In this document: in pieces, positions 45,538 through 49,847 of the stretch
Position numbering within the stretch: position 1 is the first letter of the stretch
How the letters are laid out: each line of letters starts with the position of its first letter
Assembly (NCBI RefSeq): GCF_014697545.1
Contig: NZ_JACJSA010000002.1
Coordinates: 558,001 to 622,000, forward strand
Length of the DNA: 64,000 nucleotides
Reading direction: 5' to 3'
Origin: Oscillatoria sp. FACHB-1407
GTDB taxonomy: Bacteria; Cyanobacteriota; Cyanobacteriia; Elainellales; Elainellaceae
Position numbers and translations under genes: made by a program
Notes under the pieces: generated by a model
Seen by the model: only the letters and a program-made list of their open reading frames with translations
Database searches by the model: none
Told to the model about the DNA's origin: nothing

Positions 45538-45640
45538 TTAACTTTAAATCTTCGGTGGGTGTAGCACTGAGCGCATGAACTCTCTACTCGTTTTTAAGCT
45601 ATTGTTCACGTGCTGCACCACAACCTATCTCACTTATTTT

Positions 45641-46072
45641 TCGCTGGGATTGCGTCACAATACCCGACAGCAGGGATTGTGGGCACTGCAACAGGTGGGA
45701 TTGGGCGATCGCACCCGTGCCTGGATTACGCAACTGTCTGGGGGACAACGACAACGGGTTGCCCTGGCACGCGCTTTGGTGAGCCAACCCCGGTTGTTGC
45801 TGCTGGATGAGCCGCTCGGTACGCTGGATGCCCTCACTCGATTAGAGATGCAACAACTAATTCAAACCCTCTGGCAAGAGCAGCAGTTCACCGCCATTCT
45901 GGTAACTCATAACGTAGAGGAAGCAGTCTTCCTAGCCGATCGCGTGATTGTTTTGAAAAATGGTGGCATTGACCTGGATTTGCCGATTCCATTGCCCCGC
46001 CCTCGTCCTTTAGGTGGGACTGCTCTCGCCGAGCTAAAAACCCAGATCTTAGATCGCATTTTGAATGCGTAG
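45641..46072 (+). pseudogene. N-terminally truncated ABC ATPase (SsuB/TauB-like)
   Basis: The frame encodes only the second half of a nitrate/sulfonate/taurine-type ABC ATPase: LGLRH...[11 protein letters not shown], signature [17 protein letters not shown], Walker [22 protein letters not shown]-loop [11 protein letters not shown], and the C terminal [11 protein letters not shown] typical of SsuB. The Walker A half (about 100 residues) is absent; upstream codons ([14 protein letters not shown]) are unrelated. It cannot bind ATP normally and is considered a remnant. Best match is aliphatic sulfonate import, which would suit the neighbouring cysteine dioxygenase. Bounded by inverted repeats. 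Confidence 0.82.
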
Positions 46073-46308: not shown

Positions 46309-47883
46309 CTATTTCAATTTGGCGATCGCCCCCTTTTCCAACAGCAGTTTGTCGGTCAGCAAATCTCGAATGGTAGCCACCAGAACCCGTTCTTCGTTGA
46401 CTTCAAATTTCACCGAGAGGCGATCGATCCCTGTCTGTCCAGGTGGGTCGAGGTGAGCGATGCAAACTTCCTCTCGATTGCTTTCCAGCGATCGATAGGT
46501 TTCCAGGCGGTTGAGGCTGCTGCTGGTCATTCTGCCTTGGGCGTCGTAGCTAACTTCTGCCTGAGCGATATCTGCCACTTCGCCGATATCCAGACGAATC
46601 TCGTGCTGACCTGGAGTAGCAACCTGTAATGTCAGGGATTCAGCCCGCTGACAGGGATAGCGAGTGCCCCGCTCAAACAACGGAAAGTAAGAATAGGTGC
46701 GAGTGTAGGGTTCCCACAATCGAATGGCATAAGTGTGATGCAGATAGTCGTCAATATCAGCCAGTTGGGTCAGAGCCAGAGCACCGTGAGCGATCGCCTC
46801 AAAAGGTTTGTCAAACTTTACCCGTTGCCGCCCAAAGTAAGACAGCACCAACTGTTGCACCGCAGGCACCAAACAACTGCCACCGACGAGTAACACCTGC
46901 TCAATGTCAGATTTATGAATTCCCTTACTCAACGCGATCGCCAACACATCGTCTAATGCCTGTCGCAGGTGTTCGAGAAATTGCTGAGTTTCCAGAATTT
47001 CCTCTAGGCGATCGCGGCTAAAACTGATGTCATAAGCTGTAAAGGTTTCCTCATCGAGCCAACTCTCTTTGGCTTCCGCTGCACCTGACAATCGGATTTT
47101 CAGGCGTTCGGCGATCGCCAACAAGTTCTGCCAACCCACCGCCCCAACGACTGCTCGCGATGACCCAATCTGCCTTAGATAGTCCTCCACAATCCACTGG
47201 TCAATATCTTCACCACCGACATAGGCATCTGACTTTGCCAGCACCTCCGCCTGTTGTACCCTATCACTTCCAGTGGTAGCAGCAGTGCGAACCAGGCTCA
47301 AATCCAGCGTGCCTCCACCCCAGTCAACCACTAGCACTAGTGACCCCGGATGCTGCACGGCATAGCCCAATGCTGCTGCTGTAGACTCATCTATCAGGCG
47401 CACCTCTGGGATGCCCAGTGTTTCGGCAACCTGGCGAAACCAATCCAGATACCGCTCAAAAGCTCCCACTGGAATCGTGAAAATCACCTGCGATGGGGCG
47501 ATCGCCTGTTGTTGGATTTGTTCCCACAAGTGTTGCAGAAACCGCTCTGAAACAGTCTCTACAGTGTAGGTCTGGTCGTCCAGATAGCGAGGTGGTGGTT
47601 GAAAATCTGCTACTAAATCGCGCTTAAAGGCTTTGAACAGGCGATCGGGCTGAGCCAACCCCAACCGTTGCGATCGCACCTGTTCACCGAATGCCCACTG
47701 GTCGCCTTTGACAAACACCAACGACGGCACTACAGGAATCTCCTGTACTTCTCCCTTTGCATTAGTTAATTTGAACAGCCGAGAGATGCCCGGAAACCGC
47801 AGCGTTTTGGGCTGTTGGGTGTCGGGTTCCAACAGGCTAACGACTGTGTTGCTGGTGCCGAAGTCAATGGCGATCGCAGTCAT
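46309..47883 (-). CDS. Hsp70-family protein (DnaK-like, divergent)
   Basis: A 524-residue Hsp70/actin-ATPase-fold protein. Phosphate-1 motif AIDFGTSNTVVSLLE starts the ATPase domain; VIFTIPVGAFERYLDWFRQV, LIDESTAAALGYAV and phosphate-2 VVDWGGGTLDLSLV follow, then the adenosine motif VLLVGGSCLVPAVQQLV. The C-terminal portion (about 390-524) is shorter than a DnaK substrate-binding domain and lacks the DnaK EEVD-like tail; it still looks beta-rich (LTLQVATPGQHEIRLDIGEV). This is a specialised Hsp70. It is the third gene of a DUF2997 / GrpE-like / Hsp70 unit, which supplies a dedicated exchange factor. Confidence 0.88.
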   Translation of the reverse strand: MTAIAIDFGTSNTVVSLLEPDTQQPKTLRFPGISRLFKLTNAKGEVQEIPVVPSLVFVKGDQWAFGEQVRSQRLGLAQPDRLFKAFKRDLVADFQPPPRYLDDQTYTVETVSERFLQHLWEQIQQQAIAPSQVIFTIPVGAFERYLDWFRQVAETLGIPEVRLIDESTAAALGYAVQHPGSLVLVVDWGGGTLDLSLVRTAATTGSDRVQQAEVLAKSDAYVGGEDIDQWIVEDYLRQIGSSRAVVGAVGWQNLLAIAERLKIRLSGAAEAKESWLDEETFTAYDISFSRDRLEEILETQQFLEHLRQALDDVLAIALSKGIHKSDIEQVLLVGGSCLVPAVQQLVLSYFGRQRVKFDKPFEAIAHGALALTQLADIDDYLHHTYAIRLWEPYTRTYSYFPLFERGTRYPCQRAESLTLQVATPGQHEIRLDIGEVADIAQAEVSYDAQGRMTSSSLNRLETYRSLESNREEVCIAHLDPPGQTGIDRLSVKFEVNEERVLVATIRDLLTDKLLLEKGAIAKLK

Positions 47884-47884
47884 G

Positions 47885-48121
47885 AGGAGGGGAGTGGGGA
47901 GTAGGGAATGGGGAGTGGGGAGTGAAGGAATAGGGGAGTGGGGAATGGGGGAGTCAATAAAGTTTTAAGTTGGCTGAGATTGAGCACCCGCAACCATTAA
48001 CCATTAACCACTGACTATTGACCATTAACCATTGACCATTAACCATTAACCATTGACCATTAACCATTAACCATTGACTATTAACCACTGACCATTGACC
48101 ATTGACCATTGACCACTAACC
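47885..48121. repeat. Heptamer tandem repeats (GGGGAGT type and TTAACCA/TTGACCA type)
   Basis: 47885-47960 is a degenerate array of GGGGAGT/GGGAATG heptamers. 47992-48121 is an array of about 18 heptamers of ACCATTA/ACCATTG type. These are short tandemly repeated repetitive sequences as known from filamentous cyanobacteria. They separate the Hsp70 gene from the upstream gene of the same unit. Confidence 0.88.
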
Positions 48122-48122
48122 T

Positions 48123-48677
48123 CTAAACCTGCCCCGGCAACGTACGACTGACCTTAGCAGGACAAAGAATGCGATTGCCCTGACGATAACCCACAAAGCG
48201 AACGTAAACGGGTTCACCTGCGGCTAAATCATCCGTATCGGGCTGATGCAATTGGGGATCGTAGGGCACAGCCTCCCAGGGAGCACCAATAGGTTCAATT
48301 TGCCAGGCTTCTAGCAGGTTCTCCAGTGGAGTAAAGAGAGCTATCAAATTTTTGGCGGGCAGATCGGGTTTGGTTTCTGCCATCTTCCGAGCGGTAGGAT
48401 AGCTGATCAGTAAGGATTGCAGTTGTTCAAAGGTGGAATTTTGCCAGTCGGTGAGGAGTTGAGTCTGTTGTTGTTGGAGTTCTTGACGCAGTTGCACACA
48501 CTGTTGCTGGAGCGATCGCACCTGATCAGAGTCCGTTGATGGGATGCTGGATTGCGTCGTTTGAAGAGCAGACTGGCTGACTTGGCTGCCTGTCCGTTTA
48601 CCCAACAAACTCAACACAAAAATAATGCTGCCAATACTCAAGACGCTACCGAACCAAACCAGATTGGAATCACTCAT
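48123..48677 (-). CDS. Membrane-anchored GrpE-like nucleotide exchange factor
   Basis: A 184-residue protein. An N-terminal TM (LVWFGSVLSIGSIIFVLSLL, about residues 5-24) is followed by a coiled coil (VRSLQQQCVQLRQELQQQQT, about 52-75). The C-terminal part, PLENLLEAWQIEPIGAPWEA through YDPQLHQP to VRFVGYRQGNRILCPAKVSR, matches the order and spacing of the GrpE head: G-V/I-E-P-I-G, F/Y-D-P-x-x-H, and G-Y-x-x-x-x-R-x-L-x-P-A-x-V. Its gene lies next to Hsp70 and overlaps the DUF2997 gene by ATGA. I infer an exchange factor tethered to a membrane that recruits the Hsp70. Confidence 0.75.
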   Translation of the reverse strand: MSDSNLVWFGSVLSIGSIIFVLSLLGKRTGSQVSQSALQTTQSSIPSTDSDQVRSLQQQCVQLRQELQQQQTQLLTDWQNSTFEQLQSLLISYPTARKMAETKPDLPAKNLIALFTPLENLLEAWQIEPIGAPWEAVPYDPQLHQPDTDDLAAGEPVYVRFVGYRQGNRILCPAKVSRTLPGQV

Positions 48678-48886
48678 AACTGCGACAAATACTGCGTTTC
48701 GTCCGTCAACTCGGTTTCTTCTGTCTCGTAGTATTCCGGCAACAATTCGCGTGATTCAACGGTGCCCAGTGCCTCCTCCAGGTTGGCAGTGGCAAGGGTG
48801 CAATGGGTTCCAGTCGCATTGAGAACGGTTTCAATTACCTGACCGTCTTTGCCGATGCGGTACTCAATCTGTTGATATTCAGCCAT
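48674..48886 (-). CDS. DUF2997 family protein
   Basis: A 70-residue cyanobacterial/plastid-type protein of the DUF2997 family: MAEYQQIEYRIGKDGQVIET, VLNATGTHCT, then LEEALGTVESRELLPEYY. Function unknown. Its stop overlaps the start of the GrpE-like gene by four bases (ATGA), implying coupled translation in a three-gene unit ending with Hsp70. The acidic tail (YETEETELTDETQ) could mediate binding. Confidence 0.82.
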   Translation of the reverse strand: MAEYQQIEYRIGKDGQVIETVLNATGTHCTLATANLEEALGTVESRELLPEYYETEETELTDETQYLSQL

Positions 48887-48920: not shown

Positions 48921-49847
48921 TCAAGCTGACTTGTCAATAGGGGAAGGTTTGTGGTGTTCGTGCCAGTGTTTGGCGATGTCGATGCGACGGCACAACCAGA
49001 CGCGATCGCGCTGTTGCACATAGTCCAGGAATCGAGCCAGGGCAGCGGCTCGTCCCGGTCTACCGACTAGGCGACAGTGTAACCCCACACTCATCATTTT
49101 GGGAGCGGTTTCGCCTTCCTCGTACAGCACATCAAAGGCATCGCGCAGATAGGCAAAGAACTGATCACCAGAGTTAAAGCCTTGCGCTGTGGCAAACCGC
49201 ATGTCGTTGTTGTCGAGCGTGTAGGGGATCACCAGATGGGGTTTGCTGTAGTCATAGACCCAGTAGGGCAGATCATCGGCATAGCTGTCGGAGTCGTAGA
49301 GAAATCCGCCTTCTTCGACGACCAGTTGGCGGGTGTAGGAACTCGTGCGTCCGGTGTACCATCCCAACGGGCGACTGCCTGTGACTTGCGTGTGAATGGC
49401 GATCGCCTGTTGCAGGTGTTCGCGTTCTGCCGCTTCTCCAAAATATTTGTAGTCAATCCAGCGATACCCGTGACTGGCGATCTCCCAATCGGCAGCAAGC
49501 ATGGCAGCAACGGCTTCGGGGTTGCGCTCTAATGCCATTGCTACTCCATACACCGTGACGGGAATGCCTCGCTCGGTAAACAGCCGATGTAACCGCCAAA
49601 AGCCTGCACGACTGCCATATTCATAGCAGGACTCCATATTCATGTGGCGCAATCCCTGGAGGGGTACGGCTCCCACAATCTCGGACAAAAACACCTCAGA
49701 GCTTTGGTCGCCATGGAGAATACAGGTTTCGCCCCCTTCCTCGTAGTTGATCACAAACTGCACGGCAACACGAGCCTGTCCCTCCCATTTCGGGTCAGGG
49801 GGATGCTGTCCATAGCCAATCATGTCACGGGGATAGGGGGAAGTCAT
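48921..49847 (-). CDS. puuE: Allantoinase PuuE (polysaccharide-deacetylase fold)
   Basis: A 308-residue NodB-like hydrolase of the PuuE type, metal-independent or Mn-dependent, converting allantoin to allantoate. The sequence opens YPRDMIGYGQHPPDPKW, the PuuE signature, then INYEEGGE and HMNMESCYEYGSRAGFWRL. ASHGYRWIDYKYF and the GWYTGRTSSYTRQLVVEEGG segment complete the active site region. The length is typical. It lies next to an allantoate-type amidohydrolase on the same strand and belongs to ureide catabolism, providing nitrogen in the cytoplasm. Confidence 0.92.
   Translation of the reverse strand: MTSPYPRDMIGYGQHPPDPKWEGQARVAVQFVINYEEGGETCILHGDQSSEVFLSEIVGAVPLQGLRHMNMESCYEYGSRAGFWRLHRLFTERGIPVTVYGVAMALERNPEAVAAMLAADWEIASHGYRWIDYKYFGEAAEREHLQQAIAIHTQVTGSRPLGWYTGRTSSYTRQLVVEEGGFLYDSDSYADDLPYWVYDYSKPHLVIPYTLDNNDMRFATAQGFNSGDQFFAYLRDAFDVLYEEGETAPKMMSVGLHCRLVGRPGRAAALARFLDYVQQRDRVWLCRRIDIAKHWHEHHKPSPIDKSA

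Follow-up and report, generated by a model that had tools for sequence, protein, structure and literature searches.

The three adjacent genes at positions 46309-48886 of the window, that is, of the whole 64,000-nucleotide stretch analysed here, may form the Hsp70 arm of a five-protein, ATP-driven remodelling machine, and we rate the chances of this reading as about even. They encode a DUF2997 protein, a GrpE-type protein with a predicted membrane anchor and a short Hsp70. The other two members of the set would be a Ycf46-like AAA ATPase and a DUF1257 (Ycf35-like) protein. Cyanobacteria retain the Ycf46, Ycf35 and DUF2997 families, as do algal plastids in part. These families have no assigned molecular function, and a concrete, testable context is provided by the observation that particular paralogues of all three, hereafter called A-type, co-occur across genomes with an Hsp70 and an exchange factor anchored in a membrane. 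A description of a system uniting Ycf46, Ycf35 and Hsp70 was not found in the open literature, where DUF1257 or DUF2997 is named in just three papers, subscription journals being outside the scope of the search.

The locus and its three products

The three open reading frames lie where the preliminary description had placed them, all on the minus strand, and the features of the locus are as follows.

48674-48886, minus strand: DUF2997 gene (70 aa; PF11211 at 1e-19; A-type clade)
48123-48677, minus strand: GrpE-like gene (184 aa; predicted transmembrane-anchored protein of the nucleotide exchange factor type)
48594-48668, minus strand: predicted N-terminal transmembrane helix of the GrpE-like protein (residues 4-28; hydropathy 2.21 over 19 residues; helix in the model)
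48372-48533, minus strand: long GrpE-type helix (residues 49-102; model pLDDT mostly 83-89)
48147-48299, minus strand: GrpE beta head (residues 127-177; model pLDDT about 95)
47992-48121, no strand: AACCATT tandem repeats, within the GrpE-Hsp70 spacer
47888-47950, no strand: GGGGAGT tandem repeats, within the same spacer
46309-47883, minus strand: short Hsp70 gene (524 aa; PF00012 at 9.5e-32)
46759-47883, minus strand: Hsp70 nucleotide-binding domain (about residues 1-375; from Pfam, alignment and DnaK profile)
46312-46746, minus strand: beta substrate-binding domain without a helical lid (about residues 380-524)

The DUF2997 and GrpE-like frames share 4 bp (ATGA), as had also been noticed from the sequence. 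The GrpE-like and Hsp70 genes are separated by a spacer of 239 bp filled with heptanucleotide repeats, whereas at other loci the two genes often lie close together or overlap (from -11 to about 100 bp). Promoter and terminator consensus scans gave no more matches than shuffled sequence, and the operon is putative. Because the allantoinase gene puuE (48921-49847, minus strand) ends 34 bp upstream of the DUF2997 gene on the same strand, the trio here might be transcribed from the PuuE operon; no upstream neighbour was seen to be conserved across the other trio loci. An ORF at 45575-46072 on the plus strand encodes a 5'-truncated ABC transporter ATPase whose profile match covers the C-terminal part only, and by its sequence it looks like a gene remnant.

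The GrpE-like protein scores 12.8 bits against the Pfam GrpE family (PF01025), below the gathering cut-off of 25.8. Its GrpE identity is nevertheless supported by homologues that lie above the cut-off (L122, 32.9 bits; L274, 26.1 bits), by a profile built from 15 homologues that reached E. coli GrpE (1dkg) at 1.5e-5 in a search of solved structures, and by the predicted structure. In the AlphaFold2 model, the membrane-type helix (residues 4-28) is followed by a disordered stretch, a 54-residue helix (residues 49-102), a shorter helix and the beta head, so that the long paired helix, helical region and C-terminal beta head of the GrpE fold are all present as predicted elements. The first 13 Foldseek matches of this model were all GrpE proteins, and in VIA-align six GrpE entries scored Z 8.3-9.5 and Thermus thermophilus GrpE 5.6, compared with 3.9 at most for unrelated rows; the beta head aligns with the GrpE of E. 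coli, Geobacillus and M. tuberculosis and with human GrpEL1. A coiled-coil false positive was ruled out by this structure comparison. On the strength of the model, the 184-aa protein belongs to the GrpE type and is predicted to be anchored in a membrane. The preliminary description had proposed a GrpE head on a transmembrane-anchored coiled coil and had named the lack of that head as grounds for giving the idea up; the head is there in the model (pLDDT about 95), with Z scores of about 9 to solved GrpEs. The anchoring that it had proposed also gains support from conservation, since 32 of the 35 A-type GrpEs have the membrane helix and none of the 14 others does. The thylakoid, which it had named as a possible site, is unsupported as the location.

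Three A-type GrpEs are without a membrane helix, and some combine it with a helix-turn-helix. It should be mentioned that a second cyanobacterial GrpE-like protein, here called B-type, consists of a Cro/C1-type helix-turn-helix fused to the coil and GrpE head. It occurs on contig C7 of the window's own genome (L122:5075-5752, minus strand) and at L138, L139, L140 and L134, and from its sequence it is a possible DNA-binding exchange factor. A likely route to the protein of the window leads from a helix-turn-helix GrpE through one with an added membrane helix to a GrpE with the membrane helix only.

The Hsp70 was described beforehand as divergent and short-tailed, and both words are apt. Its Pfam match is confined to residues 103-369 of the nucleotide-binding domain, and it reaches only 98.7 bits against the DnaK equivalog TIGR02350 (NCBIfam), whose cut-off is 822.55. 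An alignment of 14 members has invariant D7, T13, K87, E166, D187 and G189-G191, and the phosphate and catalytic motifs of an actin-type ATPase domain can thus be recognised in the sequence. The family profile aligns with DnaK into the beta substrate domain (positions 390-430 and 476-507), and the proteins stop at the last strand of that domain, so the helical lid is absent. The hydrophobic inter-domain linker of canonical DnaK cannot be recognised either; in its place the 14-member alignment has a conserved stretch around D-Y-L-x-H-x-Y-A-I-R, and allostery may differ for that reason. No J-domain gene was found beside the clusters with an E. coli J-domain query, so a J-protein for this Hsp70 would have to be supplied from outside them.

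The DUF2997 protein scores 70.6 bits against PF11211 (cut-off 24.1), and its family alignment contains an invariant Cys29. Its beta-beta-alpha model is of low confidence (pLDDT 58.7), and a sequence search of solved structures gave no convincing match.

Conservation of a five-protein set

The conservation searches covered 244 genomes of the phylum and the co-occurrence counts 114 genomes of the class, with A-type thresholds set at visible gaps in the score lists. Across the 244 genomes, the GrpE-like and Hsp70 proteins fall into two tiers: the A-type of the trio, and the B-type, which is present in most cyanobacteria at about 35-43% identity and is usually unlinked. The A-type proteins form clades with support of 0.97 for Hsp70, 0.93 for GrpE (unlabelled members of these two clades being A-type genes from other or shorter loci) and 0.86 for DUF2997. 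Named carriers of the trio include Stenomitos, Microcoleus, Nostoc, Dolichospermum and Anabaena. Two genes often lie next to it: one encodes a DUF1257 (Ycf35-like) protein of 124 aa, the other a classic AAA ATPase about 530 aa long. Scores divide the AAA ATPase into an A-type, above 700 bits, and a second group with about 52% identity; this group includes the single copy of most cyanobacteria, which we take, in line with the literature, to be Ycf46. The A-type groups of the AAA ATPase (support 0.71) and of DUF1257 are less clean, and the latter also includes a third variant (L164, L169 and L170). At these three loci, DUF2997 and DUF1257 accompany a near-A-type AAA ATPase, Hsp70 and GrpE are absent, and the surroundings include small genes and a conserved one encoding about 356 aa.

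Within the 114 genomes of the class, A-type Hsp70 was found in 24, A-type AAA in 25 and A-type DUF1257 in 22, with overlaps of 21 (Hsp70/AAA), 20 (Hsp70/DUF1257) and 21 (AAA/DUF1257). The p values for co-occurrence are about 1e-16 to 1e-18 when shared ancestry is ignored, and the carriers span 11-13 families. A-type Hsp70, GrpE, AAA and DUF1257 are present together in 16 genomes. The AAA ATPase is also genetically linked to the Hsp70, by its presence in 21 of the 24 genomes with A-type Hsp70 and by contiguous clusters. Linkage, co-occurrence and clades together rule out a chance neighbourhood.

The preliminary description had proposed a private Hsp70/GrpE pair with its own DUF2997, and had made the proposal depend on the three genes occurring together elsewhere. 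The pair is supported, the trio recurs in many cyanobacterial families, and all 29 trio-linked DUF2997 proteins fall within one clade. As a three-gene system, the proposal needs enlarging: the trio is real and recurrent, but the unit comprises five proteins, with the Ycf46-like AAA ATPase and the DUF1257 (Ycf35-like) protein.

The gene order is AAA-DUF1257-DUF2997-GrpE-Hsp70 in Nostocales (L115 and L116), GrpE-Hsp70-DUF1257-DUF2997-AAA in genome G076 (L274), and the same on a Pseudanabaena plasmid (L255) with two extra genes before DUF2997. A deep-branching relative from another class of the phylum (G016, L131) has GrpE-Hsp70-AAA-DUF2997-radical-SAM-DUF1257, and a Chloroflexota contig (L225) has DUF1257-DUF2997-GrpE-Hsp70. 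The order is reshuffled and the content retained, which argues for a functional unit. The window's own genome, rated 100% complete, has its A-type AAA ATPase (76% identical) on another contig, C23, and yielded no A-type DUF1257. The set here is therefore dispersed or incomplete, and it may borrow the canonical Ycf35. Another paralogous set within this genome is a pair at L154 (G000:C19:72585) in which DUF1257 adjoins a different AAA ATPase of 505 aa without DUF2997, as at L280 and L231.

Part of the set also occurs on its own. In the small genomes of marine type (family f19), DUF2997 and the AAA ATPase are retained, while searches for the GrpE-like protein and the short Hsp70 found nothing at the thresholds applied. 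AAA, DUF1257 and DUF2997 occur without adjacent Hsp70 or GrpE on Geminocystis, Bacillus and Citrobacter plasmids, the DUF1257 match on the Citrobacter plasmid being weak. Hsp70 and GrpE thus look like an arm added to an AAA-DUF1257-DUF2997 core. The Ycf46-like AAA ATPase, DUF1257-like protein and DUF2997 of the Bacillus plasmid (L259) and the IncA plasmid of Citrobacter (L260) are far from cyanobacteria. Relatives of this AAA ATPase are present in 669 plasmid records and in 54 phage records, the latter annotated at most as AAA-ATPase (for example, gene 98 of Mycobacterium phage Smooch, L281, and Pseudomonas phage SM1). The Hsp70 relatives on plasmids, the Pseudanabaena plasmid apart, are distant (<29% identity), and the annotated ones are named DnaK.

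The proposed machine and its rivals

The gene set, the GrpE and Hsp70 folds, the predicted membrane helix, the co-occurrence and the clades are directly supported. From them we infer a physical complex, a hand-over of substrate, an adaptor role, a location and a client, the mechanism resting on gene content and folds. The GrpE-type protein would be anchored in the membrane by one helix and would bind the nucleotide domain of the Hsp70, keeping it at the membrane, where ADP release by the GrpE-type protein would let the Hsp70 cycle fast on local substrates. Because its beta substrate domain has no lid, the Hsp70 probably does not fold a substrate but grips it briefly and passes it on. The Ycf46-type AAA ATPase, whose gene lies on another contig of the genome, would be the motor that completes the job, and DUF2997 and DUF1257 would be adaptors that select the substrate or couple the AAA ATPase with the Hsp70. 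DUF2997 had been suggested as a client or an adaptor; the first is unlikely, since DUF2997 and DUF1257 accompany the AAA ATPase even without an adjacent short Hsp70 and GrpE, and a small adaptor subunit is more likely. More tentatively, and with a good deal less than even confidence, we speculate that Ycf46-Ycf35-DUF2997 is a widespread remodelling core that can recruit a membrane-tethered Hsp70 and exchange factor, and that its mobile versions control OLD/Toprim-type nucleases.

OLD-type nuclease pairs sit inside some clusters, and for this reason the main rival, which we consider rather unlikely, is a biological-conflict or stress-response system in which the chaperone set senses or restrains an effector and frees it upon infection or damage. 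In five Nostocales-type clusters (L111, L112, L114, L117 and L121), an ATPase like AbiLi or AriA of PARIS lies with a small partner between DUF2997 and GrpE, or just before GrpE; the partner has no Pfam match and is Toprim-like by eye only. A similar ATPase pair occupies another position on the Pseudanabaena plasmid, an ATPase with RloB/AbiLii precedes DUF1257 on the Geminocystis plasmid, and the AAA-DUF1257-DUF2997 core is carried by Bacillus and IncA Enterobacterales plasmids. The inserted effector pairs support a conflict role for some versions, but the majority of trio loci are without such an effector, and the near-universal presence of canonical Ycf46 and DUF2997 in cyanobacteria suggests housekeeping. 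Against PADLOC models, the five components resemble no defence family beyond general AAA/Hsp70 likeness; no full system matched, and the AbiLi-like match concerns the optional insert only.

Distinctly unlikely, in our judgement, is a specialised HscA-like Hsp70 set for the maintenance of iron-sulfur or redox proteins, with the cysteine-containing DUF2997 as scaffold or adaptor. Canonical DUF2997-ycf35 forms an operon with the 4Fe-4S ferredoxin gene fed7, in the window's genome too, and Fed7 binds a DnaJ-like protein (PMC4284462). Together with the radical-SAM Fer4_12 genes near AAA/DUF1257 sets in L131, L257 and L259, these observations hint at Fe-S or redox clients, and the cysteine of DUF2997 is invariant. 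A single invariant cysteine is no cluster motif, however, and the A-type trio has no conserved ferredoxin or Fe-S gene as a neighbour. Very unlikely is an ordinary extra DnaK/GrpE copy for general folding with DUF2997 as a chance neighbour: cyanobacteria have several DnaKs, and the window's genome contains five or more full-length DnaK-type genes as well as further GrpEs, but this Hsp70 has no lid, shares <40% identity even with its own genome's short B-type paralogue and retains the same partners in more than ten families, a conserved linkage that disfavours the idea.

Comparison with known systems

A membrane-anchored remodelling machine of this kind would differ from each of its known relatives. 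GTPase-centred conflict systems likewise have HSP70 and GrpE, there encoded among the genes of mobile NTPases, but they are GTPase-based and described as nearly absent from cyanobacteria, in a paper that makes no mention of Ycf46, DUF1257 or DUF2997 (PMC7159879). DnaK1-DnaJ3-GrpE is, like the present set, a specialised cyanobacterial Hsp70 set at a membrane machine, in its case type IV pili (PMC9239167); it consists of ordinary DnaK, GrpE and DnaJ, and identity with it was ruled out because the genes differ from those of the trio.

The canonical DUF2997-ycf35-fed7 operon and Ycf46 (Slr0374) supply homologous DUF2997, DUF1257 and AAA proteins. Their clades are separate from the A-type, and they have a ferredoxin instead of an adjacent Hsp70 and GrpE. 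Loss of Ycf46 affects CO2 use in Synechocystis according to Jiang et al. (2015), as cited in PMC7496141.

In the ClpB-DnaK-GrpE bi-chaperone, an Hsp70, an exchange factor and an AAA motor cooperate in disaggregation, as is known from the literature (PMC5895705). The same three kinds of protein would cooperate here, but the AAA ATPase, which has a single classic AAA domain with AAA_lid_3, resembles Ycf46 and is not an Hsp100, and the putative adaptors are DUF1257 and DUF2997. With the DnaK-GrpE pair, the proteins of the window share the Hsp70 ATPase and the coil, helices and beta head of GrpE; they differ in the predicted membrane anchor of GrpE, the lid-less Hsp70 with its changed linker, the lack of an adjacent J-protein and the membership of a five-gene set. 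A GrpE fixed to the membrane and its helix-turn-helix-fused relatives would be new ways to steer Hsp70 spatially.
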